From assembly GCF_905250085.1 (NCBI RefSeq), contig NZ_CAJNOB010000012.1:1-64000 (forward strand): a stretch of DNA of 64,000 nucleotides. Reading direction: 5' to 3'. The notes below the pieces were generated by a model. It was not told where the DNA came from. It saw only the letters and a list, made by a program, of their open reading frames with translations, and made no database searches. The stretch comes from Candidatus Methylacidithermus pantelleriae (GTDB lineage: Bacteria > Verrucomicrobiota > Verrucomicrobiia > Methylacidiphilales > Methylacidiphilaceae). Positions 3,594-60,284 of the stretch are shown in pieces (positions within the stretch are counted from its first letter, which is position 1; the number at the start of each line of letters is the position of its first letter). Made by a program: the position numbers and the translations under genes.

Positions 3594-5240
3594 GGCCAAC
3601 GAAGGAAGGTCGATTTCGGACGCCAACCGAACCATGCTGCCGACAATTCGCGTGCACGGGTTTCACCAATAAAGCCCAGGTAGCTCCCAATCTCCGCGTT
3701 TTCCCGGACAGAGTCGTGGGAGGCAGCCAATCCCCTCCAAACCGCGCATGAGCTGCTTGCGCCCCTTTGAGTCTCGCCTGAACCCCTGCCCAGAACCACC
3801 ACACATGCTTCGTCGGATTGCTTGCGGGTAGGGCAAAGGTGGCAAGACCATCATCGCGAATAGCCAGGACTGTCTCTCCCACCGATGGGTCTTGAGAGAG
3901 CCCCAACTCTCTCCGGGCGACCCCACGAGGCCAGACCCTGGTAGGAACTTGGTGCCATGACGACCCGCGTAGTTGACCGCACCGATCACAGACGTGTAGG
4001 CCGGGTCGACTTCGATCACCTCGACTCCAGCGCAAAAAAAGCCGCCGTGAGCACCGAGATCGCCCTGGCGTAGCAGAAGGAAAAGAGCGAGCGGGCCCGA
4101 AGAACGGGATCCACTGGCTCAAGCTCAAGCCCCCTCTTGCGAAAATCCACTCGTTCGATCCCAAGCTGCTTGGCCGATTCGACGCAGGCCCGGGCGATCT
4201 CTTTGCACGCATGAGGAAAAATGGCTTTGGCCTCTTGGTCGCTCTTGCCACAGAGATTCAATCGAATCCCGCGAATTCTCACGAGATTGCCCAAGCGATC
4301 CGTTTCGCCCAAGGCGAGATGATCCCCATTCGTGTCGATGCCGACCGCTCCGGCGAGGCAGCGTGTCACCAAGGGAAGAGGTTGCGCCTCGACGCTCGCC
4401 AACACACGTCACTCCTTTCGCTCCCGCACGAAGCGAGAGCAACTCGCGGATGCCTCCCGCTTCTGGACGAGTTTCCCCCTCTTGGTTGTCTCGGTCACGA
4501 TCCGGCTGGCCGCTAGCGCCCGGAAGATCGCCTTCCGGCCCCAGGCCAAGCGCACGTCCTCAAGAACCAGCTATTGGCTCGGGCTCCCCCCATCCGTCCG
4601 GCAGCCGCAACGGCAGCAGATAGGCTGCCGTCCGGAGCAACTACGGTTTGGCACGACTGGTTGCCGGCGGTCTTGTCCTTCGAACTCAAGGTAGAGAACT
4701 GGGTCCTCCGCTCCCCCTGCCAATCCCTCTTCCGGTCCCCATGATTGGAGTATGCGTTCTTTTCCAAGGAAAACTCTTCACGGGAAGAGACGCCGGAAAC
4801 CACAACGGAGACGCACCTCCTCTGGCGCTCCTGATCGGCCAGGAGCGCGTCGCGCCTGGTCCGCAGGATAGCCAACCGCCGCTTTTTTCTCCTGCAAAAC
4901 GTTCGCTCCCGGCTTCCTTTGCTCGAGCTCGCGGATCACGGTTTCCGCTCTTCCTGATTCCCCCTCGCTCCCGCAATCAGCTGGGGCCACCGTTCGGGGA
5001 TCGAAGCGATCTTCCCTTCGAGCTCGGACCCCCAAGGGGATGGAACGCTCCGGCGGCCAAGCCAAACCGCCAGAGGAAAAATCGCTTAAGTTTCTCTCGC
5101 GCCACGCCAGCCGGCATTTGCCGAAAAAACTCCGCTCTCGCCCATAGAACGCCACATCGGTGTTAAGCAACGCCCCCCGAGCTGGCGCGTCACCCGCAAG
5201 CCCGTCTAGTGGGGCAAAACAGAGAGCTTGCTCATGCGAT
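3594..5240 (-). pseudogene. tnpB: TnpB (IS607-associated RNA-guided nuclease) relic
   Basis: Fragments of one TnpB protein lie in order along the minus strand in changing frames. N-terminal part (5230-4780): ELEQRKPGANVLQEKK. Next (4875-4600): AILRTRRDALLAD, FSLEKNAYSNHGD and SSKDKTAGNQSCQT. The RuvC-I region (4405-4016): [18 protein letters not shown], containing the first catalytic-type Asp, then [15 protein letters not shown]. Then [20 protein letters not shown] near 3960-4020, and ATFALPASNPTKHVWWFW near 3785-3840. These blocks are characteristic of TnpB of IS607/IS605 elements. At least three frame changes and internal stops make it non-functional. No omega-RNA feature was identified. 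Confidence 0.75.
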
Positions 5241-5820
5241 CGCTTTATGACCCTTCTCCCGGTGCTTTTGCGCGGATCTCTTCCCGTAAAGCCTGCCACA
5301 CAAGGAAACGATCACCCCACGCAGGTCAGCCACAATATCCTCGGTCCTCTCATTGGAATCCCCTCCCAGGATGGATGGACTCTGCACCGCCAATGCCACC
5401 TCCCGGTACTGGAAACCAAAGCGCATCAGCCGGTCAGGCTCCTCGACCAGGATGACCGCCAAGGTTCGAATCACAGACCTGCCCAATGAGCCCGCTGCGA
5501 CGGCCGTTCCTCCCAGAGTCGAGCTCCTTGACGGCCTTAACGATCCGCAACTCTTTCCTTGAGAGCCAACTCGCAGAACCCAAGCTAATCCCTGTCTCGA
5601 TCCCCTTTTTCATGGGCGCTTGCACACCGGCCCCTAGAGCACCACTCCATATCGCGCGGTGCCGGCGCCGTATACACGACTACCGTCCCGGTCGGGAACG
5701 ATTCTGTGGAACAGGCCAATGCCCCTCCTTCCACATCCATCCGCCAAGCCACCTTCTAGCCAACACCCTACCGCTTGACCCACGCAGTTACCTTCCTTTT
5801 GATATCCCGCCGTCAAGAGC
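5232..5820 (-). pseudogene. tnpA: IS607 serine recombinase TnpA relic
   Basis: Three pieces in different frames. The N-terminal DNA-binding part (about 5816-5640) shows a PTGTVVVYTAP segment as in the MerR-like head of IS607 TnpA. The middle (5625-5434) has KELDSGRNGRRSGL, matching the E.GSGLNGRR segment after the catalytic core strand. The C-terminal part (5486-5232) has EEPDRLMRFGFQY and EDIVADLRGVIVSLCGRLYGKR, the classic DRL.RFGFEY and DLV..I.SFC.RLYG.R blocks. The frame changes between them make it a pseudogene. It sits immediately upstream of the TnpB relic. Confidence 0.75.
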
Positions 5821-6270
5821 GCTATCTCTCCCGATATTTTTCGATGTTGCTACCCCTTTTCTCTTTCCTTTGCCAGGACACCTTGGGAGAGGATCGGCTC
5901 CGATTGACGCTCGAGGCTAGAGAACGCTCCTGAAGAGCCTCTGGAAGACCAGAATCCTTTAAGCCTCCAAGCAAGCTACAGTACAAATGTGGAAATTTTT
6001 TTACGTCGAGCACGCGAAAGTGAGTTCTACCCAGAAGCTAATCGCTCCCAAACGCAGGGAGCTTTCTCAAGGAAAACCGCGGTAAGGCTTTTTTGCTAGC
6101 TTCCCCGATAGGATCTGGCCTAGTCTATTCGGGCAATTCCTTAAAAAAAACGATTTTTGCGAAACCCTGGATAGGCGTGGTGTCTGTTCAAGTGTGTTGC
6201 GAAGTGCATCAGCTTCAAAAACACCGGAGAATAGTCATCTCGTCCCTCCGATGCAGGAATGGAGACAAGG
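5821..6270. other. Spacer upstream of lptB
   Basis: No gene recognised. It should hold the promoter of the lptB-prmA-helicase unit, but no clear -35/-10 pair was found. Confidence 0.45.
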
Positions 6271-7059
6271 ATGGATCCAACAGTTGACCTTCGAGACAAG
6301 CGGGCTTCGGTCCCGGAAAGCAATCGGTTAACACCACCATCGCTTTTGCGTGCGGAAAAGCTGGTTAAAGAGTTTCGTGGACGGCGGGTTGTCCAAGAGG
6401 TCAGCTTAGAAGTTGCGCGAGGCGAGATTGTGGGTCTTCTCGGGCCCAATGGCGCCGGCAAAAGCACTACATTCCGAATGCTTGTGGGACTGGTGCGGCC
6501 CAATTCGGGAAGGGTGTTTCTAGGAGAGGAAGATATTACCCACCTGCCCCTTTACCAGAGGGCGCGCCGGGGCATCGGTTACCTGCCCCAGGAAGAATCC
6601 GTATTCCAAAAGCTTACGGTGGAAGAAAATTTAATGGCGATCCTTGAGTTTCTGGAAATGACGCCGGAGGAACGACGCGCTCATTGTCACGATCTCTTAC
6701 GGGATTTTGGCCTTGAATCCGTTCGCGATACCCTCGCGATCTCGTTAAGCGGTGGAGAAAAAAAGAGACTAGCAATCGCCCGTTGTTTGATTACCTCCCC
6801 CAATCTCTTTCTTCTCGACGAGCCATTTAGTGGTGTGGACCCATTGGCGGTCTATGACCTGCAGCAAATTATTGTAAGTCTACGAGATCGAGGTATTGGC
6901 ATTCTTATCACCGATCACAACGTTCGAGAAACCTTGGCTATTGTGGACCGTGCGTATCTCATCTGCGAGGGTCGGGTGGTCCGTCATGGCACGAGCGAGT
7001 TTCTTATCCATGACCCGGTGAGCCGGGAACTCTATTTGGGTCCACGGTTTAGCATGTAA
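6271..7059 (+). CDS. lptB: LPS export ABC transporter ATPase LptB
   Basis: Cytoplasmic ATPase that drives LptFG to extract lipopolysaccharide from the inner membrane for transport to the cell surface. The sequence has Walker A GPNGAGKST, a Q-loop in LPQEESVFQKLTV, the signature LSGGEKKR, Walker B LFLLDEPFSGVDP and the H-loop TDHNVRETL. The phrases YLPQE.SVF and TDHNVRETL distinguish LptB from other ABC ATPases. The start at 6271 is preferred because GGAG lies six bases upstream; an ATG at 6259 would add four residues. The N terminus carries ~20 residues more than typical. prmA follows with a 1-base TAATG overlap, so the two are co-translated. The partner genes lptF, lptG, lptA and lptC are not in the window. 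Confidence 0.9.
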   Translation: MDPTVDLRDKRASVPESNRLTPPSLLRAEKLVKEFRGRRVVQEVSLEVARGEIVGLLGPNGAGKSTTFRMLVGLVRPNSGRVFLGEEDITHLPLYQRARRGIGYLPQEESVFQKLTVEENLMAILEFLEMTPEERRAHCHDLLRDFGLESVRDTLAISLSGGEKKRLAIARCLITSPNLFLLDEPFSGVDPLAVYDLQQIIVSLRDRGIGILITDHNVRETLAIVDRAYLICEGRVVRHGTSEFLIHDPVSRELYLGPRFSM

Positions 7060-7925
7060 TGCCAACGGTAAAAAAGGTCTGGTGGGTCTGGAGGCGATTG
7101 ATCTCCCCTCGTTGGGAGGATAGCTGGATCGAACGCCTCCGGTGGGCCGGCCAGGACAAGGTTGCCGTCCATCATGTCGCCGGGCGAAAGTTTTCCCGGC
7201 TAGAAGCCTATTTCCCCAGTTCTCAAAAAGCGCGTTCCATCCAAAGAGCCTTTGGAGGGACGGTGAGCCAAGTTTGTCTTCCCAAGAGTTTGGGGGAAAC
7301 CCTCAAGCCCGTGTCCCTGGGCCGACGGCTCACGATTTATCCAGAGAAGCCAAAAACCCAAAGCCCCGGCCACCCCTTTCTTGTCATCCCTCCCGGACCT
7401 GCTTTTGGAAGCGGTCACCATCCGACCACCCAACTTCTTTTGCAGGCTCTCCTCGATTTACCGTCTCTTTCTGGCAAAGCGCTTCTGGACGTGGGAACCG
7501 GGAGTGGGATTGTGGCTCTTGCCGGACGCTTGTTCGGCGCTCAACCGGTGATCGGGCTCGACATAGATCCCCAGGCGATTAGCGAAGCTCCGAAAAACGA
7601 GAAACGCAACTTTCGTGGCGGCCAAATCCATTGGATCTGTGCCAACTTTCTCCAATGGGAAACGGAAGCTCGGTTTGATATCGTCTGTGCGAATCTCTTT
7701 GCTTCATGCTTTATTTCCGGGGCCCAAACGTTTGCCCTCTGGATGCGTCCGGAAGGCCGGTTACTTGCCACAGGGGTTCTTATGAACCAGAAGGACGAGG
7801 TCCGGAAAGCGCTTTCTCAAGCCGGGTTTTTATGGGAAGGAACGCTAACCAAGCGTCAGTGGATCCTGGACCGGTGGCTGTGGCCAGGAAAAAAAACAGA
7901 AACGTTTGCTAGCGCTCACCCCTAG
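7059..7925 (+). CDS. prmA: Ribosomal protein L11 methyltransferase-like (PrmA family)
   Basis: 288 residues. SAM-dependent methyltransferase expected to trimethylate ribosomal protein L11. The central PGPAFGSGHHPTTQ block (substrate/SAM pocket of PrmA) is followed by motif I LLDVGTGSGIVALAG, the acidic strand end VIGLDIDPQAI and the catalytic-type VCANLFAS (N-P/A-x motif; PrmA usually has NI.A). The N-terminal substrate-recognition domain is present but divergent. It overlaps lptB by one base and lies ten bases before the helicase gene. A related small-molecule or other protein methyltransferase cannot be excluded, but the GTGxHxTT-like block favours PrmA. Confidence 0.8.
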   Translation: MPTVKKVWWVWRRLISPRWEDSWIERLRWAGQDKVAVHHVAGRKFSRLEAYFPSSQKARSIQRAFGGTVSQVCLPKSLGETLKPVSLGRRLTIYPEKPKTQSPGHPFLVIPPGPAFGSGHHPTTQLLLQALLDLPSLSGKALLDVGTGSGIVALAGRLFGAQPVIGLDIDPQAISEAPKNEKRNFRGGQIHWICANFLQWETEARFDIVCANLFASCFISGAQTFALWMRPEGRLLATGVLMNQKDEVRKALSQAGFLWEGTLTKRQWILDRWLWPGKKTETFASAHP

Positions 7926-7934
7926 ACAGCTCGA

Positions 7935-9854
7935 ATGGAACCTCCTTATCTGAGCGGGCTCAACCCCCAGCAAAAAGCAGCCGTTACCGCACCTTGCGGT
8001 CCGATCCTTGTGATTGCTGGAGCCGGGAGCGGTAAAACCCGGACCCTTAGCTGCCGGGTTGCTTATCTCTTGGATCAGGGAATCCCACCGGACAGGGTTC
8101 TTTTGGCGACTTTTACGAACAAGGCGGCTCGGGAAATGATTGACCGGGTTACTAAGCTGGTTCCGGTCGACGCAAGCCGAATATGGGGTGGGACCTTTCA
8201 TCATATCGGCCATCGTTTATTGCGTCGTCATAGTGAAAGGCTGAGAATCGATCCTCACTTTACCATTATCGACCGGGAAGACGCAGAACACCTTTTGGCC
8301 GAATGTTGCCAGGAACTTGGCTACAGCCGAAAAGAGGGACGATTCATCCCCAAGGCTGCGGTTCTTTTGGAATTGTTTAGCCTATCGATCGGAACCCGGC
8401 GGACGTTGGAAACGGTGCTCGCAGAACGCCTCCCAGAAGCTCTCCTTGTACAGAAGGAAATTGGCGAAATCTGGGAGGCCTACCGGAACAAAAAGAGGGC
8501 TAGTCGGCTCCTTGACTATGATGATCTTCTGTGGTTCGCCTTCGAGCTTCTTCGCAACGATTCCTTTTTGCGAGAACATTACCAGGAAAAATTCCTGCAC
8601 ATCCTCGTGGACGAATACCAGGACACTAATCGTCTCCAATCTGACCTAGTGGATCTTTTGGCACAGCGCCATCGCAACCTGATGGTCGTGGGAGACGACG
8701 CTCAAAGTATCTACTCATGGCGGGGGGCTGAGGCCCGGAACATCCTTTCCTTTCCTCAGCGCTATCCGGACGCCTTTCGCATCTCTATTGAAGTCAACTA
8801 TCGGAGTGCCCCCGCCATTTTGGAGCTCGCGAATCGTGCGATCGAGCAAAACATAAGACAGTTCCCCAAGCGGCTTCGTCCCGCACCCTTCGCCCCTAAG
8901 GGGATGCAACCTCTTTTGGTTGTCGCTCATGATCCAACCGAGCAGGCAGCTTTTGTAGGGTGGCAGCTGAGCAAACTGGCCGAGCAGGGTATCCCATGGC
9001 ATGAAATGGCCGTGCTCTATCGAGCCCACTTTCATTCCCTGGAAGTTCAAATGGAACTCGTCCGCCTGGGGATCGACTTTGAAGTAACAAGTGGGCTAAG
9101 ATTTTTCGAACAAGCCCACATCAAGGACATCGCTGCCTTTCTTCGCTTGGTCGTTAACCCAAAGGATGAAGTAGCCTTTCGGAGGGTTGCAACCCTCATG
9201 CCGGGAATCGGTCCTAAGACGGCAGCTCGACTCTGGCTAGAAGTTTCTCGAGGGAAAGACTTGGGCCAAATCGTGCCCCCGGCCAGTGCCCTACCCACGT
9301 GGACAACCTGGTATTCCCTTCATCAAGAGCTACTGAATTTGGTCCACCGGCCGGATGCCCAGGTAAAATTGATCGTGGAAAGGTTTTACGATTCCTATGC
9401 CCGGCTGTCCTACCCTGATGCAGAGAGCCGACTGGAGGATGTTAAGGAGCTTGCCAACTTTGCCAAGGGCTTCAAGCACACCGAGGAAATGCTTGCCGAG
9501 CTTTCTCTTCTTACCAATCTCGAAGCCCCTCGAAAGGGCGAAGACAAGAGCTTAGTCCGCCTCTCTACCATCCATCAAGCCAAAGGCTTAGAGTGGAGGA
9601 TTGTCTTTGTTATCATGCTTTGCGAGGGACTATTTCCGGCGGCTCGATCCCTAACAATCCCCCATGGGGAGGAAGAGGAACGACGGCTTTTTTACGTAGC
9701 TATTACACGCGCCAAAGAGGGCCTTTTTCTTGTGTATCCCCGGTTCCGACCCGAGGTGGAACGGGGAAAGCTAAAACCTTCTCGTTTCTTGGAAGAACTC
9801 TCCTCCAAGTTGCTCGAAACGCGCCAAGCCAAAGACTTCTGGACTGGTTCATAA
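7935..9854 (+). CDS. Superfamily I DNA helicase, UvrD/PcrA/Rep type
   Basis: 639 residues. 3'-5' DNA helicase used in repair, replication restart or recombination. Motifs in order: Q-motif LNPQQKAAV (9-17), Walker A AGAGSGKT (28-35), Ia TFTNKAAREM, II LVDEYQDTN near residue 227, III GDDAQSIYSWRGA, IV EVNYRS, V STIHQAKGLEW and VI EEERRLFYVAITRAK. It is shorter than E. coli UvrD (720) and lacks the C-terminal Tudor-like extension, so Rep-like or a compact PcrA are both possible. Third gene of the lptB-prmA unit, ten bases after prmA. Protein identity to the family is clear; the exact orthologue name is not. Confidence 0.9.
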   Translation: MEPPYLSGLNPQQKAAVTAPCGPILVIAGAGSGKTRTLSCRVAYLLDQGIPPDRVLLATFTNKAAREMIDRVTKLVPVDASRIWGGTFHHIGHRLLRRHSERLRIDPHFTIIDREDAEHLLAECCQELGYSRKEGRFIPKAAVLLELFSLSIGTRRTLETVLAERLPEALLVQKEIGEIWEAYRNKKRASRLLDYDDLLWFAFELLRNDSFLREHYQEKFLHILVDEYQDTNRLQSDLVDLLAQRHRNLMVVGDDAQSIYSWRGAEARNILSFPQRYPDAFRISIEVNYRSAPAILELANRAIEQNIRQFPKRLRPAPFAPKGMQPLLVVAHDPTEQAAFVGWQLSKLAEQGIPWHEMAVLYRAHFHSLEVQMELVRLGIDFEVTSGLRFFEQAHIKDIAAFLRLVVNPKDEVAFRRVATLMPGIGPKTAARLWLEVSRGKDLGQIVPPASALPTWTTWYSLHQELLNLVHRPDAQVKLIVERFYDSYARLSYPDAESRLEDVKELANFAKGFKHTEEMLAELSLLTNLEAPRKGEDKSLVRLSTIHQAKGLEWRIVFVIMLCEGLFPAARSLTIPHGEEEERRLFYVAITRAKEGLFLVYPRFRPEVERGKLKPSRFLEELSSKLLETRQAKDFWTGS

Positions 9855-50533: not shown

Positions 50534-53446
50534 ATGGTGATTTCCTTTGAAACACAAACAAAGAGCCAAAAGGAGAAGCCAACTCACCGATCCAACCGGC
50601 TTGGCCGGAAAGAATGCCTTACGCTTCTTTTTTCCTGCCTTTGTTGGCCTATGTTTGGGGGCTATCCGGCGATCAAACTGCTTGCTCATAGCCCCAAGGA
50701 CCGCAAGTTTCTCCCAACCGGGGTCTGGGTTAGCCCCTTGGCCACACCGGGCTCCATTTGCTTGCCCTTGGTTGAGGAGCCCGGTGGCCAAGTGAGCTCG
50801 TTCCAAGTCGGCCAACCAGCCATCGCAACGGTAAGTCCAAACGGGCAGCTTCTGCTGGTGGTAACTAGTGGCTACAATCTATTCAACTTGGGGGAAGTAA
50901 AAGCGTCCCACCTGAAGAAAGATGAGTACGTTTTTCTGTTTCAACTGAGTGATCCCAATCATCCTACAAAACTTGGTGTCTGGACAATCCCCAATAGTTT
51001 TTACGGAGCCTGCTGGCATCCAAGGGGTAACGAGTTCTACGTCTCTGGCGGAAAGGATGACTGCATCTGGGTCTTTCGAAAGGAGGATGGAGGCTGGAAC
51101 CGCAAGAGGTCCATTTCCCTCGGTCACAAGCACGGAAATGGTCCCGGGATTACGCCAGTGGTGGCGGGTGTGGGAATAAGTCCGAAGGGTGACCTTCTTT
51201 TGGCGGCTAATCTAGCGAATGATTCGGTCACCGTGATCGATTTGCAGCAATACAAACCGGTAGCCGAACTCGATCTTCGGCCGGGGGCGGGGGTTGCCGG
51301 AGGTGAGTATCCTTTCTGGGTAACGTTTATCGGTCCAGAAAAAGCCTATGTATCGAGTCTCCGCGATCGCGAGGTCATAGCCATTGGGTTTTTGAAAGGA
51401 AAACCTATCGTTTCTTCGCGGATCCCGGTAGCCGGCCAGCCGAATCGCCTCCTGGCCTCCCACACTGGCAAAAGGCTCTACGTGATCGAGGACAATTCCG
51501 ATCGTATTTCGGTCTTGGACACGGCAAACGAACGGTGGATTGAATCGATTCCGATCCCAGGAGACTGGAATCGATTCTCTGGGCTGCCCCGGAGAACCCG
51601 CCGGGCCGCAAACTTCCTGCCAGGCTCAAACCCGAACGCTGCCGCCCTTTCCCCGGACGGAGGGTGCCTGTACGTCAGCTGCGGTGCCATAAACGCTGTG
51701 GCCATGGTGCAGCTAGGCGCAGCCTCCCAGGACCCAGACAAATCGACTGCGGCGCAAGAGCGGTCACGCAGCACTCGAGAGGGTTCTTGCTCCCAGCCGA
51801 GCAAGGTCGTAGCACTGCTCCCCACAGGCTGGTATCCAAGCTCCGTCGACATTGCGGCGGACGGTCGCACCTTGTTTGTCACCGACATGAAGACAGACCC
51901 AGGACCCAATCCGAACGCTTGCCAGCCTTCCACCCGTCCTGAAGGAAAATTGGCCCCATGTCGCCTGGCCAACGAGTATGTTTGGCAATTAACCAAAGGG
52001 GATCTTTTGATTCTACCAATCCCTCGCGAAAAGGAGCTGCATCGGCTTACTTCAGTGGTATTGCAGAATAATCGAGTCAAGCCGACCGGTTCTTTTTCCC
52101 TGAAGCTTGCGAAATTTCTTCGCGACCATATCCACCACATCGTTTACGTAATAAAGGAAAATCGCACCTACGACCAAGTGCTCGGAGACCTGGAAAAAGG
52201 GGATGGGGACCCTCGGCTCACCCTCTTTCCCGAGCCGTTGACACCCAATCATCACGAGTTGGCACGAACGTTTGTTACTTTGGATCGCTTTTTTTGTAGT
52301 GGAGAGGTGAGCGGGAACGGATGGAACTGGAGCACCGCTGGTCGGGCGACCGATTTTACGGAAAAAACGGTACCCGTTGCCTATGCTGGAAGGGGCCTTT
52401 CAAGCGACTGGGAAGGAGAAAACCGCAACGTTAACGTTGGTTGGGCCTCAGTGGAGGAAAGAAAGAAGGCCTTCCCAGGCTATCCAGACGATCCAGACCT
52501 CCTTCCAGGAACGCGAGATGTAGCAGCCCCGGATGGTCCTGGAGGCCAAGAGGGAGCCGGTTACCTATGGGACGCAGCGCTCAGGGCAAAAAAGACGGTG
52601 CGAAACTATGGGTTTTTTGTCGATCTCTCCCGCTACTGGCTTCCGCCTTCTCATCCTGGCTTTATTCCTATCACTCCGGAACCCTTCCGACAAAAAATCG
52701 TCCAGGCTTACCCTACCAAACGGGCTCTCATCCCCCACACGGATCCCTACTTTCGGGGCTTCGATATGCGAAATGCCGATTTTTGGCTCTACCAAGAATG
52801 GGAGAGAGAATTTGACGCGTACGTGCACAACGGCCATTTTCCCCATCTTTCCCTGGTCCGATTCCCTCATGATCACTTCGGCGCTTTCAAAGACGCGCGG
52901 TTCGGAGTTAACACGGTCGAGACTCAAATGGCCGATAATGATTACGCGCTGGGCCTTCTTGTGGAAAAAATCGCCCACAGCCCCCACGCCAAGGACACCC
53001 TCGTTTTTGTGATCGAGGACGATGCACAGGACGGACCGGACCACGTGCACAGTCACCGAAGCCTAGCCCTTGTCGCCGGTCCCTATGTCCGCCAAGGAGC
53101 GGTGATCTCGACCCCATACACGACCGTCGATCTTTTGCGAACCCTTTTTGACATTCTGGGGCTTGAGCCCAGTTGCCAAGAGCTGGCCTTCGCCCGCTTT
53201 ATGGGAGACATTTTCGATCCCAACCAGAAGGAATGGACCTACACAGCCCGGATACCCGACGTTTTACGTTCGACCGAGCTTCCTCTTCCATTAAGCCAGA
53301 AGGCCTCTCAAAAAGTAGCGGCATCCCGACAACACAACGCCGACTACTGGGAAAAGCTTATGCAGGGAGAAAATTTCACCCAGGAAGACCGGCTTGATCC
53401 CCTGCGGTTTAATGAGGCTCTGTGGAGAGGAATGAGAGGAGAGTAA
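50534..53446 (+). CDS. YncE-like beta-propeller fused to an alkaline-phosphatase-superfamily phosphoesterase
   Basis: 970 residues. After a basic N terminus and hydrophobic segment (about 30-50) that suggests export or anchoring, residues ~80-500 contain propeller repeats (ATVSPNGQLLLVVTSG, GVGISPKGDLLLAANLANDSVTVIDL, LASHTGKRLYVIEDNSDRISVLDTA, AALSPDGGCLYVSCG, VDIAADGRTLFVTDM). From ~530 the phosphoesterase domain begins with HIVYVIKENRTYDQVLGDL and continues FFCSGEVSGNGWNWSTAGRATDFTEK and VFVIEDDAQDGPDHVHSHRSLALVAGPYV with metal-binding Asp/His. This two-domain family is known in environmental bacteria, but the substrate is unknown. It stands alone: 150 bases after der and followed by 700 bases of spacer. 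Confidence 0.85.
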   Translation: MVISFETQTKSQKEKPTHRSNRLGRKECLTLLFSCLCWPMFGGYPAIKLLAHSPKDRKFLPTGVWVSPLATPGSICLPLVEEPGGQVSSFQVGQPAIATVSPNGQLLLVVTSGYNLFNLGEVKASHLKKDEYVFLFQLSDPNHPTKLGVWTIPNSFYGACWHPRGNEFYVSGGKDDCIWVFRKEDGGWNRKRSISLGHKHGNGPGITPVVAGVGISPKGDLLLAANLANDSVTVIDLQQYKPVAELDLRPGAGVAGGEYPFWVTFIGPEKAYVSSLRDREVIAIGFLKGKPIVSSRIPVAGQPNRLLASHTGKRLYVIEDNSDRISVLDTANERWIESIPIPGDWNRFSGLPRRTRRAANFLPGSNPNAAALSPDGGCLYVSCGAINAVAMVQLGAASQDPDKSTAAQERSRSTREGSCSQPSKVVALLPTGWYPSSVDIAADGRTLFVTDMKTDPGPNPNACQPSTRPEGKLAPCRLANEYVWQLTKGDLLILPIPREKELHRLTSVVLQNNRVKPTGSFSLKLAKFLRDHIHHIVYVIKENRTYDQVLGDLEKGDGDPRLTLFPEPLTPNHHELARTFVTLDRFFCSGEVSGNGWNWSTAGRATDFTEKTVPVAYAGRGLSSDWEGENRNVNVGWASVEERKKAFPGYPDDPDLLPGTRDVAAPDGPGGQEGAGYLWDAALRAKKTVRNYGFFVDLSRYWLPPSHPGFIPITPEPFRQKIVQAYPTKRALIPHTDPYFRGFDMRNADFWLYQEWEREFDAYVHNGHFPHLSLVRFPHDHFGAFKDARFGVNTVETQMADNDYALGLLVEKIAHSPHAKDTLVFVIEDDAQDGPDHVHSHRSLALVAGPYVRQGAVISTPYTTVDLLRTLFDILGLEPSCQELAFARFMGDIFDPNQKEWTYTARIPDVLRSTELPLPLSQKASQKVAASRQHNADYWEKLMQGENFTQEDRLDPLRFNEALWRGMRGE

Positions 53447-54163: not shown

Positions 54164-55126
54164 TTAACCCTGGACAAGCCCTTGGCCGACCGAGCGGCAA
54201 AGACCCAGGAAAGTCTCTTCCGCCAATGAGAGGGAGCGATTGCGGCGGTGGAGAATACCCCATTGTCGCTCCAACACCTCACCCGGAAACGGGAGTTGAA
54301 TCAAGGTTCCTTTAACAAATTCTTGCCGGACAAGCCAATCGGGCAACACCCCGATTCCCAACCCCACCTTCACCATTTCTTTGATGGCTTCCATGTTGCC
54401 CAGCTCAATAAACGAGCGCAGTCGAACCCGGTGACGCTCAAAGTAAGCCTGGATGATCCTAAAGGTAACACTGGATTTGTTATACAAAAGGTAACGCAAC
54501 CCGGAAAGTTCCTCGGGGGCAAGGGTCGCGCGATGAGCCAGAGGGTGATGGGAACTTGCAACGAACACGAGCCGATCTTGATAGAGCGGGTGGAACACAA
54601 GGTCGACCTCCCGAAACGGGCAGACCCCCAAAACCAGATCCACCCGCTTCTCTTCCAGTAGTTCGATCCCCTTGGGCGTGTCTGCGGACTCTACGGAGAT
54701 CATGCATTCCGGGAAACTTTCTTTAAACTCCCGAAAGACAGCGGGGAGAATGTACTGGCAAGCAGTGGTGCTGGCCGCAATCCGCAGCCGCTTGCCCCCC
54801 CAACCTTCCTCGTCGGAAACCTCGGCGCGCGCTTGCCCCATCTCGTTCAAAATGGAGCGGGCCCGAACAAGGAGCCGCTCGCCGGCAGCAGTTAATACGA
54901 CTTTCCTTCCGCTGCGCTCCAAGAGTCGGCAACCCAGTTCACTCTCCAAGGCCTGAATCGCCCGCGTGACCGAGGATTGACTTAACCGGAGTCGTTTTCC
55001 GGCACCCGTAAAGCTCCCCACCGACTGGACTGCCACAAAGATCTGCAAGTGGCGGCTGTCCAGAACCGGTTCGTTTTCCCAGTCGATCTTTTTGCGCGGG
55101 TCCTGTCTGAACCGGTTGGTTATCAC
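54164..55126 (-). CDS. LysR-family transcriptional regulator (CmpR/CbbR-like)
   Basis: 320 residues from a GTG start. LysR helix-turn-helix: RHLQIFVAVQSVGSFTGAGKRLRLSQSSVTRAIQALESELGCRLLER, then the linker helix. The C-terminal effector domain (from ~110) has LRIAASTTACQYILPAVFREFKESFPE and MVKVGLGIGVLPDWLV. The C-terminal wording (AIKEMVKVGLGIGVLP.W) is close to CysB/CmpR/CbbR-type regulators of carbon or nitrogen uptake. It is divergent from the NrtA-like gene across a 150-bp gap, the typical LysR target arrangement. The frame is open up to an ATG at 55252; that extension is unlike the family and would remove most of the gap. Confidence 0.88.
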   Translation of the reverse strand: MITNRFRQDPRKKIDWENEPVLDSRHLQIFVAVQSVGSFTGAGKRLRLSQSSVTRAIQALESELGCRLLERSGRKVVLTAAGERLLVRARSILNEMGQARAEVSDEEGWGGKRLRIAASTTACQYILPAVFREFKESFPECMISVESADTPKGIELLEEKRVDLVLGVCPFREVDLVFHPLYQDRLVFVASSHHPLAHRATLAPEELSGLRYLLYNKSSVTFRIIQAYFERHRVRLRSFIELGNMEAIKEMVKVGLGIGVLPDWLVRQEFVKGTLIQLPFPGEVLERQWGILHRRNRSLSLAEETFLGLCRSVGQGLVQG

Positions 55127-55276
55127 CTTGCCTACGCCTTCGAAGAGGGAAGTCCCGTAAGCAATTTCAAGACCAACGTGCCCTATGCTCTGGAAGCATT
55201 TGTCCGATTCTTTCCATTCTCCGCTTGGAGAGATCGTTCCGAGCGATGGCACAGCCGTTGCTTGAAAAGCAAAGAG

Positions 55277-56353
55277 ATGTCAGCGACTCGTCCCCTTCGG
55301 AAAAGACGCTCTTCGGGAACCATTCGACTGGGTTACGTGCCATTATGCGATTGCGCTCCGCTGGTGGCTGCCGAACAGCTGGGTCTTTTTTCTCACTGTG
55401 GACTAGAGGTCGTTCTGGTCCGAGAAGCCGGCTGGGCCACCGTTTTGGATAAAATTGTCTTTGGCGAGCTGGAAGCAGCACACGCTGTCGTGGGACTCCC
55501 TTTTGCCAGCGCTCTCGGGCTAAGAACAATCCCCAAACCGTGCTTGGTCCCCCTTATACTTAGCCTTCACGGCAATGCCATTACTCTAGCCCGTCACTGG
55601 TGGGACAGGGGAATTTGCGATGGTTTTAGCCTGCGGCAGGCAGTCGTCTCAGAAAATCGCAGGCTTACCTTTGGCGTGGTTTCTCTTTTTTCGTCACACC
55701 ACTTTCTTTTGCGCCAATGGATCTGGAGCGTGGGGATCCCGCTCCAGCTGGTGCGTATTTGCGTCGTCCCACCCCCTCAGATGCCCGACCATTTGGCTGC
55801 TGGACACCTGGATGGATTTTGCGCGGGCGAGCCATGGAACTCGGTGGCCGTTCAAAGGGGTGCCGGATGGTGTCCGATCACTTCGGGCGAACTGGCGCCC
55901 CTGCATCCTGAGAAACTTCTGGTCGTGTCGCAACCATGGGCCGAGCATAACCGCGAAGAATGTCTCCGGCTGGTCGCAGCTCTTATCTCAGCCTGCCAGT
56001 GGTGTGACGAGCCGGAAAATCGGGAAAAGCTGGTCAGCTGGCTAAGTTCGCCTCGTTACCTCCACCTTCCGGAGGAGATGGTCCGACCCAGCCTCGTGGG
56101 GCCCTTTTCTCCTGCGCCCGGCAAGACGCGGGCCTTGCCGGATTTTCTCGTCTTTCATCGCTTTGACACGAACCGGCCTACCCGGACCAAAGCTCTTTGG
56201 GTCTGGGAGAAACTGCAATCCTGTCTTCATTTCGAATTGCCGGTTTCGGAACCTCCATGGCAACCGATCGAGCTGTTTTCGGAGGAAATGTACCTCGAAG
56301 CATTGGAGCTCGGCTTCTCGATGCTGAGTTGTTCAGAAACGATCCCACGATGA
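55277..56353 (+). CDS. Soluble NrtA/CmpA-like substrate-binding domain protein, no export signal
   Basis: 358 residues from the ATG at 55277, preceded by AAAGAG. The N terminus is basic and polar (MSATRPLRKRRSSGT) with no signal peptide or lipobox, then enters the NrtA-like fold: IRLGYVPLCDCAPLVAAEQLGLF, EREAGWATVLDKIVFGELEAAHA-type block (here VREAGWATVLDKIVFGELEAAHAVV), VPPPQMPDHLAAGHLDGFCAGEPWNSVAVQRG. In cyanobacterial NrtC/CmpC such a domain is fused to the cytoplasmic ATPase and acts as a regulatory sensor; here it is free-standing. The next gene starts at its stop (ATGA). A sensor or regulator role is inferred; a degenerate duplicate of the binding protein is the alternative. Confidence 0.8.
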   Translation: MSATRPLRKRRSSGTIRLGYVPLCDCAPLVAAEQLGLFSHCGLEVVLVREAGWATVLDKIVFGELEAAHAVVGLPFASALGLRTIPKPCLVPLILSLHGNAITLARHWWDRGICDGFSLRQAVVSENRRLTFGVVSLFSSHHFLLRQWIWSVGIPLQLVRICVVPPPQMPDHLAAGHLDGFCAGEPWNSVAVQRGAGWCPITSGELAPLHPEKLLVVSQPWAEHNREECLRLVAALISACQWCDEPENREKLVSWLSSPRYLHLPEEMVRPSLVGPFSPAPGKTRALPDFLVFHRFDTNRPTRTKALWVWEKLQSCLHFELPVSEPPWQPIELFSEEMYLEALELGFSMLSCSETIPR

Positions 56354-57660
56354 ATACCTCCGGAAATCCCCCATCGAACCCTCCTCCTACCAATGGCCCT
56401 GCGTTTACCCGGAGGGAATTTGTCATTCGGGCAGCAAGACTTTGTGGCATCTCGGCTCTTGTGGCTTCCCTGGGGGAAAAGTGGGCAGGAGGCGCTTATG
56501 CCCAAGAGGCGCCTGAGCTGTCGAAGGTGCGAGTGGGCTTTATTGCGCTCACTGACTGTGCTCCCCTGGTTGTAGCCCATGAGAAAGGTTGGTTTCGCAA
56601 GCATGGGATCGAGGTGACCTTGTGCAAAGGAGCCAGCTGGGCAGCCATTCGCGACAGTCTCTCCAACGGGGACCTCCACGCAACCCACATGCTTTTTGGC
56701 ATGCCCATAGCCTCGACGATCGGCCTTTTAGGATCCCCCCAAAAACCCATGATCATTCCCTGGGTGTTAAATCGCAACGGCCAGTCGATCAGCCTGGCCG
56801 TCTCCTTTAAAGGAAAGGTCCGGGCTGACCCAAACGAGCTTCGCCCATTTATCCTAGAGGCCCGAAATAAGGGCAAACCCCTTACCTTTGCCATGACCTT
56901 CCCCTCAGGCACCCACGCTATGTGGCTGAGATATTGGCTTGGGGCAGGAGGAATTCATCCCGACCGGGATATTGGCCTTATCACCATTCCCCCGCCTCAG
57001 ATGGTGGCCAATATGAAAGTAGGCAAAATGGAGGGGTTTTGTGTAGGAGAACCTTGGAATGCCCGTGCCATTGCCGAGGGGATAGGCTTTACGGCGATCA
57101 ATAGCCAGGATATCTGGAGGGATCACCCGGAAAAGGTCCTGGCCTGCACGGAAGAGTTTGCCGAGCGGTATCCGCGAACACTCATAGCACTCCTGCGCGC
57201 AATCTGCGAAGCAAGCCTCTGGCTTGACGAGCGGCCAGAAAACCGCCGGCAAGCTGTTGGCTGGCTAACCCAAGCCGCCTACGTAAACTGTAGTCCAGAA
57301 CTCATCCTTTCTCGATTCCTAGGTCATTATGATTTCGGCGATGGGCGTTACCAAGAGGATCCTTACTACATGATCTTTTTCAAGCGCGGATGTAATTATC
57401 CGCAACGCAAATACGCCGTCTGGTTTCTTTCGCAATACCGCCGCTGGGGCATGCTCCCTGACCCACCCGATTACCAGGCAATCGCGTCGAAAGTTGTTCG
57501 TCCCGAGTTCTACGGGGCGGCCCTCAAGTCCCTCGGCCTACCCATTGCCCAAGAGAACAAAGATCCGGAGAGATTGTTTGATGGTCACGTCTTTGACCCC
57601 AGAGACCCAGAGGCCTACGCATTGAGTTTTCCCATTCGAACCCTTAGAGGAGCCACGTGA
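56350..57660 (+). CDS. Tat-exported NrtA/CmpA-family ABC substrate-binding protein
   Basis: 436 residues. The Pro-rich N terminus leads to a twin-arginine signal TRREFVIRAARLCGISALVASLG (20-42) with likely cleavage after AYA near residue 50. The mature protein has VRVGFIALTDCAPLVVAHEKGWF, CKGASWAAIRDSLSNGDLHATHMLFGMPIAS, ITIPPPQMVANMKVGKMEGFCVGEPWNARAIAEGIGF, the hallmark blocks of nitrate (NrtA) and bicarbonate (CmpA) binding proteins. Which ion it binds cannot be told by eye. Start overlaps the stop of the cytosolic paralogue; the permease GTG overlaps its own stop. In a methanotroph, nitrate uptake or CO2 supply would both make sense. Confidence 0.9.
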   Translation: MNTSGNPPSNPPPTNGPAFTRREFVIRAARLCGISALVASLGEKWAGGAYAQEAPELSKVRVGFIALTDCAPLVVAHEKGWFRKHGIEVTLCKGASWAAIRDSLSNGDLHATHMLFGMPIASTIGLLGSPQKPMIIPWVLNRNGQSISLAVSFKGKVRADPNELRPFILEARNKGKPLTFAMTFPSGTHAMWLRYWLGAGGIHPDRDIGLITIPPPQMVANMKVGKMEGFCVGEPWNARAIAEGIGFTAINSQDIWRDHPEKVLACTEEFAERYPRTLIALLRAICEASLWLDERPENRRQAVGWLTQAAYVNCSPELILSRFLGHYDFGDGRYQEDPYYMIFFKRGCNYPQRKYAVWFLSQYRRWGMLPDPPDYQAIASKVVRPEFYGAALKSLGLPIAQENKDPERLFDGHVFDPRDPEAYALSFPIRTLRGAT

Positions 57661-58427
57661 AAATGAACCACAAGCGAGCCAACCTGATCTTCCCGCTTCT
57701 TGGAATTGCACTCTTACTCCTCATCTGGGCCGGGTTTAGCCTTCTTCCAGGCTCCGGGTTACCCTCCCCTTGGAAAACCTGGGAAGCAAGCCGACTCTAT
57801 CTTCTCCGGCCATGGGAGAAAAGGGGAGAGATGGACCAAGGTATCCTTCGGTTTCTTTCCTACTCCCTCCTTCTGGTGGCAAAAGGTTATACGATTGCCA
57901 TCCTAGCCGGTGTTCCTTTGGGCCTTGCATTAGGACTGTGGCGACCTTTCTCTCTTTGCTTTGATCCGCTCGTTCAAATCTTGCGTCCCGTTTCCCCGCT
58001 GGCCTGGCTTCCCCTAGGTTTAATCCTTTTCCGTCGCTCAGAACCGGCAGCGATTTTTACGATTGCGATCTGCGCCATGTGGCCGACCGTGCTGAATACA
58101 GCTACAGGCGTAAAAAACATCCCCCAGGAGTATTGGAATGTCGCCCGCTCTCTGAACCTTTCCTCTTGGAAAACCCTCTGGAAAATCGTCATCCCTGCTT
58201 CCCTTCCCTACATGTTCACGGGATTCCGCTTAAGCTTGGGAATTGCCTGGTTAGTCATCGTAGCTGCGGAAATGCTAACGGGCTCCCCTGGAATCGGCGG
58301 TTTTCTCTGGCAGGAGTACAATAGCCTGGTCTACGAACATATCCTTTTATGCATTTTGACTATTGGACTTGTTGGGTTTGCCCTTGATCGGATGATGGCC
58401 TTGCTTGAGGAGCGCTTGCGCTATTAG
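57657..58427 (+). CDS. NrtB/CmpB-type ABC transporter permease
   Basis: 256 residues. Six membrane segments starting NLIFPLLGIALLLLIWAGFSLL (9-30). The binding-protein-dependent permease domain has GVPLGLALGLW, DPLVQILRPVSPLAWLPLGLILF, and the cytoplasmic EAA-type loop EYWNVARSLNLSSWKTLWKIVIPASLPYMFTGFRLSLG, with Asn where the family usually has Gly. GIGGFLWQEYNS is the conserved segment of NrtB/SsuC-type permeases. GTG at 57657 lies eight bases after GAGGAG; an ATG at 57663 is the alternative. No ATPase (NrtC/D, CmpC/D) follows; the next 600 bases have no gene, so the ATPase must be encoded elsewhere or be lost. Confidence 0.9.
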   Translation: MKMNHKRANLIFPLLGIALLLLIWAGFSLLPGSGLPSPWKTWEASRLYLLRPWEKRGEMDQGILRFLSYSLLLVAKGYTIAILAGVPLGLALGLWRPFSLCFDPLVQILRPVSPLAWLPLGLILFRRSEPAAIFTIAICAMWPTVLNTATGVKNIPQEYWNVARSLNLSSWKTLWKIVIPASLPYMFTGFRLSLGIAWLVIVAAEMLTGSPGIGGFLWQEYNSLVYEHILLCILTIGLVGFALDRMMALLEERLRY

Positions 58428-59024: not shown

Positions 59025-60284
59025 ATGGAGCCACGGAAACGACCTCAGGCGGGAAAGAGTCCTATCCGCAGCTTTGCGGAGAGTTTAACGGAACAAAGTG
59101 CCGTTCTCTACGTGCTAGACCGTCCCTCCCTTCGAGATGGTCCTCTTAGGGGCGCCCGCACGCTCCGAGCGGAATCACTGGCGGAAGGGAATGTTAACCT
59201 GATCTTCCGGGTGGGAGACCCGGAAACGGGGTCTTCTGTGATCCTCAAACAGGCCTTGCCCTTTGCCTGGCGATATCCTGCGTTTCGCATGCCAAGATCC
59301 CGAGCTCGTATCGAATATGAATGGCTGCAGCGCCAGAAAATCCACTCCCCCCAGTGGGTTCCTCGGGTCTTTGATTTCGATCGAAAGAACTATGTACTGG
59401 CGATGGAGGACCTAAAAGATTTTACCGTCCTTCGAAAAGCCCTCATTACGGGCCAAAAACCTCACCATCTTGGATTCCAGGTTGGCCAATTTCTTGCGCG
59501 TTCTCTCTTCTACACAACGGACTTTTTCCTTCCTTCGCAGGTAAAAAAAAGGCTTGTTTGTCGTTTCCTCAATCCCGTTCTCCGGAAAGTCCAAGAGGAG
59601 CTTGTCTTCCTCAACCCCTGGACGGAACACCCGACCAACCGGTGGACTTCCGCGCTGGCTTCGGAAGTGCAAAGCCTTCAGAAGGATGGCACACTCCGAG
59701 CAAAAGTCCTGCATTGCCTCCAAAAGTATAGCTCTTGTGCCGAGGCCCTCATCCACAACGACTTCCATACGGGTTCGCTCCTTGTCTCCCCTACCGGCTT
59801 GCTTAAGGTGGTGGACGCCGAATTTGCTTTTTTTGGTCCTATCGCCCATGACCTCGGTACGTTTTTTGCCCACTTGGCTTTGAGTTACGCAGCGCAAGTT
59901 TGGTGGAAAAAGCGGACAGAAGAACAAATTGCCTACCGGAAGTGGATCGAAGAACAGCTGACCTTCACCTGGTCCGCCTTCGAGGAAGATTTTCTTTCCC
60001 TGTGGGAAGCCGATGGGCAACCCGGTCGGGACTTGCCCCGATACCGAACACTCTTTTTGCGGACAATTCTCCGCGAATTACCGATCTTTGCGGCGGCGGA
60101 AATCGTTCGGCGCATCATTGGCCTGGCCCACGTAGAGGACCTCGAATCGATTCCCGAGCTAGAGTCCAAGGTCTCCGCAGAACGGATGGCCCTTGCCATT
60201 GCACGTGCTTGGATCAGAGAATCGGATGGAATTCGAGACGCCAAAGATCTCACCGAACTTATGCGCCAGGCAGCCTCCCCCTAG
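59025..60284 (+). CDS. mtnK: S-methyl-5-thioribose kinase (MtnK)
   Basis: 419 residues. Phosphorylates 5-methylthioribose in the methionine salvage pathway; cytosolic, choline-kinase-like fold. AESLAEGNVNLIFRV is the nucleotide-binding start, VILKQALPFAW carries the Lys, and EYEWLQRQ a conserved helix. The catalytic loop ALIHNDFHTGSLLVS corresponds to LIHGDLHTGSI in known MtnK (Asp retained, G to N and L to F changes), followed by VVDAEFAFFGPIAHDLGTFFAHL where DxEFA binds Mg. Length fits the family (~400). mtnA lies 1.3 kb downstream on the same strand; other pathway genes are absent. Confidence 0.9.
   Translation: MEPRKRPQAGKSPIRSFAESLTEQSAVLYVLDRPSLRDGPLRGARTLRAESLAEGNVNLIFRVGDPETGSSVILKQALPFAWRYPAFRMPRSRARIEYEWLQRQKIHSPQWVPRVFDFDRKNYVLAMEDLKDFTVLRKALITGQKPHHLGFQVGQFLARSLFYTTDFFLPSQVKKRLVCRFLNPVLRKVQEELVFLNPWTEHPTNRWTSALASEVQSLQKDGTLRAKVLHCLQKYSSCAEALIHNDFHTGSLLVSPTGLLKVVDAEFAFFGPIAHDLGTFFAHLALSYAAQVWWKKRTEEQIAYRKWIEEQLTFTWSAFEEDFLSLWEADGQPGRDLPRYRTLFLRTILRELPIFAAAEIVRRIIGLAHVEDLESIPELESKVSAERMALAIARAWIRESDGIRDAKDLTELMRQAASP

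Follow-up and report, generated by a model that had tools for sequence, protein, structure and literature searches.

NasS is a protein without the signal sequence of the nitrate-binding protein NrtA that conserves the nitrate-coordinating residues and controls NasT (PMC3795266). Another described relative of NrtA is the C-terminal regulatory domain of cyanobacterial NrtC and CmpC, which is cytoplasmic and fused to an ATPase. On the side of the regulators, some cyanobacteria require the LysR protein NtcB for induction by nitrate/nitrite (PMC5424462). Here we describe a locus of 'Candidatus Methylacidithermus pantelleriae' that shares features with each of these systems. The window, meaning the whole stretch of DNA analyzed, is the first 64 kb of a 176 kb contig (C12) in a metagenome-derived genome of 2.46 Mb and 71 contigs. 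Within it, three genes on the plus strand encode a signal-less NrtA paralogue (orf1, 55277..56353), an exported NrtA with a Tat-like (twin-arginine translocation) signal (orf2, 56350..57660), and an NrtB-type permease (orf3, 57657..58427), and a gene for a LysR-type regulator (54164..55063, minus strand; PF00126 and PF03466) is transcribed divergently from orf1. On balance, we consider it probable that orf1 is a NasS-like cytosolic nitrate sensor that controls nitrate assimilation through this LysR protein in place of NasT.

Orf1 among the relatives of NrtA

A preliminary description of this locus noted two paralogous binding-type proteins encoded back to back, a Tat signal on the second and none on the first, and no ATPase gene following them; all of these observations hold. 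Both proteins match PF13379 (NMT1_2, cut-off 24.7 bits), orf1 (358 amino acids) with 221.5 bits and orf2 (437 amino acids) with 322.9 bits. They are 34% identical, and their genes overlap by ATGA, as orf2 and orf3 do by GTGA. The closest match to orf2 in the PDB is NrtA 2g29 (E 5e-85), and orf3 scores 217.4 bits against the NrtB model TIGR01183, above the cut-off of 209.05. The gene that follows orf3, at 59025, encodes a methylthioribose kinase, and no ATPase gene lies in the interval. Judged by eye, the N-terminus of orf2 contains a twin-arginine region (TRREFVIRAARLCGISALVASLG...AQEAP) of the Tat-like kind, and that of orf1 consists of about 16 polar residues ahead of the binding domain with no hydrophobic stretch. 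A missed signal peptide was ruled out, the in-frame upstream extension of orf1 being intergenic and not signal-like. Orthologues of orf1 are present in 19 genomes of the order at ~38-47% identity, and nearly all of them are also without a signal-like N-terminus by eye. A cytosolic location for orf1 is suggested by these N-termini.

The predicted structure of orf1 (predicted local distance difference test 88.8, predicted template modeling score 0.89) superposes on NrtA 2g29 with a Z score of 44.8 and 2.1 Å over 332 residues, and it matches the NrtC and CmpC domains with Z scores of 42.5 and 42.3. Residues of the NrtA site were located by motif as the W of ASW, the H of GTH, the W of GEPW, and the K of HPEK, which we take from structural work on NrtA to be its nitrate-coordinating positions. 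Among 32 relatives of orf1 these are kept in 32, 30, 31, and 32 proteins, respectively. The Q of NGQG is replaced by N in orf1, a change found also in NasS and in the NrtC/CmpC domains. Because CmpC retains the K as well, the residues alone are no proof of specificity for nitrate, and nitrate is best regarded as the presumptive ligand of orf1. Two variations on the gene were observed among the relatives. At locus L117 (5749-7924), two tandem orf1-type genes lie behind one LysR gene in a stretch without a transporter, which represents a lineage-specific duplication. Genome G007 encodes, beside a normal orf1, an additional stand-alone and fast-evolving orf1-like protein (L066, 6365-7418) away from LysR and nitrate genes.

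In a maximum-likelihood tree of 62 proteins, from which CmpA was left out, orf1 and its LysR-linked relatives form a single clade with support of 100/100. The NrtC/CmpC domains form another (100/100), orf2 belongs to the NrtA1 clade (100/99), and NasS groups with a second type of NrtA (99/97). Orf1 is nested in none of the NrtC/CmpC, NrtA1, or NasS groups of the best tree, and it does not fall among the exported NrtA proteins. The approximately unbiased (AU) test rejects neither a sister relation of orf1 to the NrtC domains (p 0.27) nor a grouping of orf1 with NasS (p 0.14), and either may be its sister group.

Linkage to a LysR regulator and its promoter

The constant companion of orf1 is the LysR gene. 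Our survey covered 338 Verrucomicrobiota genomes, 48 with orf1 (50 orf1 genes) and 290 without it, and an orthologue of the LysR gene was present in 49: all 48 of the genomes with orf1 and one of the 290 without. It is divergent from orf1 and within 68-360 bp of it for 48 of the 50 orf1 genes. The corresponding Fisher value of 8e-58 is inflated by shared ancestry and cluster-wise loss and does not represent independent events. Association with the transporter follows a different pattern. NrtB above the cut-off is missing from 12 of the 48 orf1 genomes, orf1 is retained beside NasA/NirB without NrtB at L056, L058, L059, L062, and L063, and it stands apart from the transporter at L051, L057, and L064. 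Genomes of the Methylacidiphilum type have orf1 directly ahead of nitrate reductase and NirB. The linkage to LysR, the genomes without NrtB, and the position before nitrate reductase thus associate orf1 with the regulator and with nitrate reduction rather than with the ATP-binding cassette (ABC) transporter. In the window, the mechanically called LysR open reading frame extends to 55252, and homology starts only at the MDSRHL start near 55063.

This arrangement invites comparison with the NasS-NasT systems of Paracoccus, Azotobacter, and rhizobia, in which a free NrtA paralogue with no signal is already known to occur beside an exported NrtA, a precedent that the preliminary description overlooked. 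In alphaproteobacterial loci (Peteryoungia L073, Sulfitobacter L079, Leisingera L086, and further loci), an ANTAR protein heads a signal-less protein, an exported NrtA, NrtB, and an ATPase, which is the NasT-NasS layout. Proteobacteria thereby share the operon layout seen here, with NasT-NasS standing where LysR-orf1 stands. Like NasS, orf1 keeps the ligand residues, and its gene takes first or second place in an operon for nitrate assimilation, with those for exported NrtA, NrtB, the ATPases, and the reductases coming after it. Unlike NasS, orf1 has no NasT/ANTAR partner, belongs to a separate clade, has a divergent LysR gene, and has a sigma54-type promoter and a LysR-type palindrome directly upstream. 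The ANTAR domain (PF03861) was found neither in this genome nor in 25 other orf1 genomes, with positive controls matching in 6 of 6 cases, and a search of 62 genomes across the order gave a single sub-threshold match. A variant was also seen in several betaproteobacterial loci (L136, L138, L167, L169, L173, and L175, at ~6000-9200), where an exported-looking NrtA and then NrtB come directly after NasT and no signal-less NasS intervenes.

The intergenic region between LysR and orf1 contains two candidate control elements. A LysR-type palindrome of the T-N11-A form with perfect 5-bp arms, ATGCT-CTGGA-AGCAT (ATGCTCTGGAAGCAT, 55185..55199, plus strand), occupies the place where relatives carry ATGAA-N5-TTCAT. 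A site resembling a sigma54-type -24/-12 promoter, TGGC[AG]N8GC (TGGCACAGCCGTTGC, 55247..55261, plus strand), follows, with the palindrome 62 bp upstream of it. Of 37 regions between LysR and orf1, 32 contain this sigma54 signature (against a mean of 0.76 and a maximum of 3 after shuffling) and 18 contain a strict palindrome like ATGA[AG]-N5-[TC]TCAT (shuffled mean 0.16). In regions with both elements, the palindrome precedes the sigma54-type site by 62-65 bp. LysR and a palindrome are retained in genome G004, which lacks orf1, and the sigma54-type site has been lost there. A scan for the composite of LysR box and sigma54-type site covered the window and the loci examined. In the window the composite occurs only ahead of orf1 (expected 0.01 per 64 kb), and it appears again upstream of the nitrate reductase gene nasA on contig C3 (ATGCGTTCCAAGCAT...TGGCACAGAGCCGGC). 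The pattern was defined after the window's own site had been viewed, which makes the recurrence on C3 the more independent observation.

From these elements a working mechanism can be proposed. Orf1 would be derived from an NrtA-type binding protein that lost its export signal. Orf1 would close on nitrate entering the cell, with a change in how it acts on LysR, by release or by binding. LysR at the palindrome would then set the output of the sigma54-type promoter ~62-65 bp downstream that would drive orf1-nrtA-nrtB, and the ATPase step required by sigma54 would come from a general nitrogen activator of the NtrC type. The contact between orf1 and LysR is presumptive, as is the sign of the regulation. 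The proposal draws on what the sequences show, namely the paralogy, the split of the operon discussed below, the conserved ligand residues, the LysR linkage, the absence of ANTAR, and the conserved promoter elements. A broader version, in which a free cytoplasmic binding protein controls LysR at a sigma54 promoter throughout the phylum as a two-protein switch replacing NasS-NasT antitermination, is offered more tentatively and falls somewhat short of probable. If it is correct, one type of cytosolic nitrate sensor would act through RNA antitermination in Proteobacteria and through a DNA-binding LysR protein in Verrucomicrobiota, two outputs that are unrelated, and LysR would work at a sigma54 promoter. 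Orf1-type genes annotated as NrtA would then likely be regulators, as has been stated for NasS (PMC3795266). The LysR-orf1 pair predicts a regulon from DNA alone, and cultured Methylacidiphilum strains allow direct testing. To judge from the literature searched, which gave no regulator, nitrate sensing has apparently not been described in Verrucomicrobiota or in the acidophilic methanotrophs among them, and looking in Verrucomicrobia for LysR in combination with NasS/NrtA-like sensors returned nothing.

Several points weigh against orf1 acting through LysR. LysR proteins usually sense a ligand of their own and usually act at sigma70 promoters; action at a sigma54 promoter is rare, and LysR alone cannot open one. 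The linkage could mean merely that the two genes share an operon, the cluster being gained and lost as a unit. In rare cases, namely G197 (C7:213644-215906 and C15:31194-32078), G342 (C44), and G272 (C150), LysR is divergent from NrtA or occurs without orf1. Transcription in the window is predicted to start only ~4 bases ahead of the start codon of orf1, and the ATPase operon described below has just a weak sigma54-like site (TGGTATGCCTCCTGC) and no box. The exceptions in G197, G342, and G272 also offer natural experiments on the dependence of LysR on orf1.

A transporter divided between contigs

The authors who described strain PQ17 of this organism list an NrtABC nitrate transporter plus NasC and NasD (PMC8170126). 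In the present assembly, searching the genome with the NrtCD model gave 24 ATPases, and the top two adjoin each other on contig C34 (C34:33369-34250 and C34:34267-35151). Each is an NrtC/NrtD-like protein of ~293 amino acids with no binding domain, and their scores of 259 and 190 bits lie under the model cut-off of 291.8. The pair has no permease partner, in keeping with the earlier suggestion that a suitable ATPase is encoded elsewhere in the genome. Downstream are a flavoprotein and then a sulfite/nitrite reductase, in the order found in the complete operons of relatives, and the gene for the nitrate reductase NasA is on yet another contig (C3:15731-17818). L191 (C25:1-12000, minus strand, 4981-7053) encodes a further molybdopterin oxidoreductase of the nitrate reductase type, a more distant one with ~30% identity to Methylacidiphilum NasA.

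Relatives of the same order have the genes as LysR(divergent)-orf1-NrtA-NrtB-ATPase-ATPase-(further genes)-flavoprotein-NirA. This order is full or nearly full at L048, L049, L050, L060, and L065, and L067 has NrtA-NrtB-ATPase-ATPase-flavoprotein-NirA. Because the complete set forms a single operon in the relatives, gene order indicates that an ancestral operon was broken in the present genome, at the point between the NrtB gene and that of the first ATPase. The transporter would combine NrtA and NrtB from C12 with the two ATPases from C34. It would resemble an NrtABCD importer in having orf2 and orf3 as NrtA and NrtB together with two NrtC/NrtD-like ATPases, and it would differ in an operon spread over two contigs and in ATPases that are both short and without the regulatory domain. 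An assembly edge is an unlikely reason for the absent ATPase, with the C12 locus at 55-58 kb of 176 kb and the C34 pair at 33-35 kb of 144 kb; misassembly in a metagenome-derived genome could still lie behind the split.

The possibility that the locus is the remnant of a second transporter, with a complete set elsewhere, was ruled out. The genome has one NrtB, found solely at the orf3 locus, and two intact PF13379 proteins; beyond orf1 and orf2, the whole-genome PF13379 search gave a single match, a broken fragment on C14. The surroundings of that fragment (L015, C14:12000-26000, ~6451-7800, minus strand) form a decayed ABC transporter locus in which an NMT1_2 fragment containing a stop codon adjoins a truncated NrtD/SsuB-type ATPase.

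Alternative roles for orf1

The preliminary description had proposed that orf1 is a dissociated NrtC/CmpC-type subunit working with an ATPase encoded elsewhere. Such a subunit would bind the C34 ATPases or NrtB and inhibit or gate transport at high internal nitrate. The best PDB sequence matches of orf1 are indeed the NrtC and CmpC domains (199 and 173 bits), with which it shares 31-34% identity, the fold, and the replacement of Q by N; no such domain is present in the C34 ATPases, and the AU test allows the sister relation. However, orf1 is free and not fused to an ATPase, its constant neighbor is LysR, and it persists in the quarter of genomes without NrtB and at loci away from the transporter. 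Moreover, the complete operons of relatives that begin with orf1 already hold two short ATPases, as do the proteobacterial NasS operons with their own free protein. A detached NrtC/CmpC subunit is therefore unlikely, and what stands of the earlier proposal is a free, apparently cytosolic protein, here found to have conserved ligand residues, and ATPases encoded elsewhere. We did not class orf1 as an NrtC domain because neither the fusion nor co-occurrence with the transporter was found on testing, and it was not classed as NasS either, since tests showed NasT, the defining partner, to be absent. The latter result also bears on the idea that orf1 is a strict NasS whose RNA-binding antiterminator is encoded, unrecognized, elsewhere in the genome while LysR acts separately. 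The anatomy and operon place of orf1 are those of NasS and the AU test permits the grouping, but the ANTAR searches that recognized every control gave nothing in the 26 orf1 genomes, and the clade of orf1 is separate, so we regard this reading as distinctly unlikely.

Two further explanations assign orf1 no regulatory part. It is quite improbable that orf1 is a cytosolic carrier delivering nitrate or nitrite to the reductases, or a nitrite buffer. The conserved ligand residues and the orf1 genes adjoining NasA/NirB in Methylacidiphilum would suit such a role, but the strict linkage to a divergent regulator gene and the analogy with NasS speak against it, and such small substrates rarely require carriers. 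The least probable of the explanations is that LysR alone senses nitrate/nitrite in the manner of NtcB, with orf1 a non-functional or marginal passenger of the operon. NtcB offers a precedent as a LysR regulator over nitrate genes, the role proposed for LysR here, and the literature searched describes no free NrtA-like sensor accompanying it. A passenger, however, would not be expected to have an intact fold and ligand residues all but invariant over the whole phylum, or to persist where the transporter is gone. Control of LysR by a NasS-like orf1 is the reading that we retain.

Elsewhere in the window, positions 50534-53446 encode a protein of 970 amino acids with a beta-propeller and a phosphoesterase region, which has weak matches to the hydrazine synthase beta subunit.

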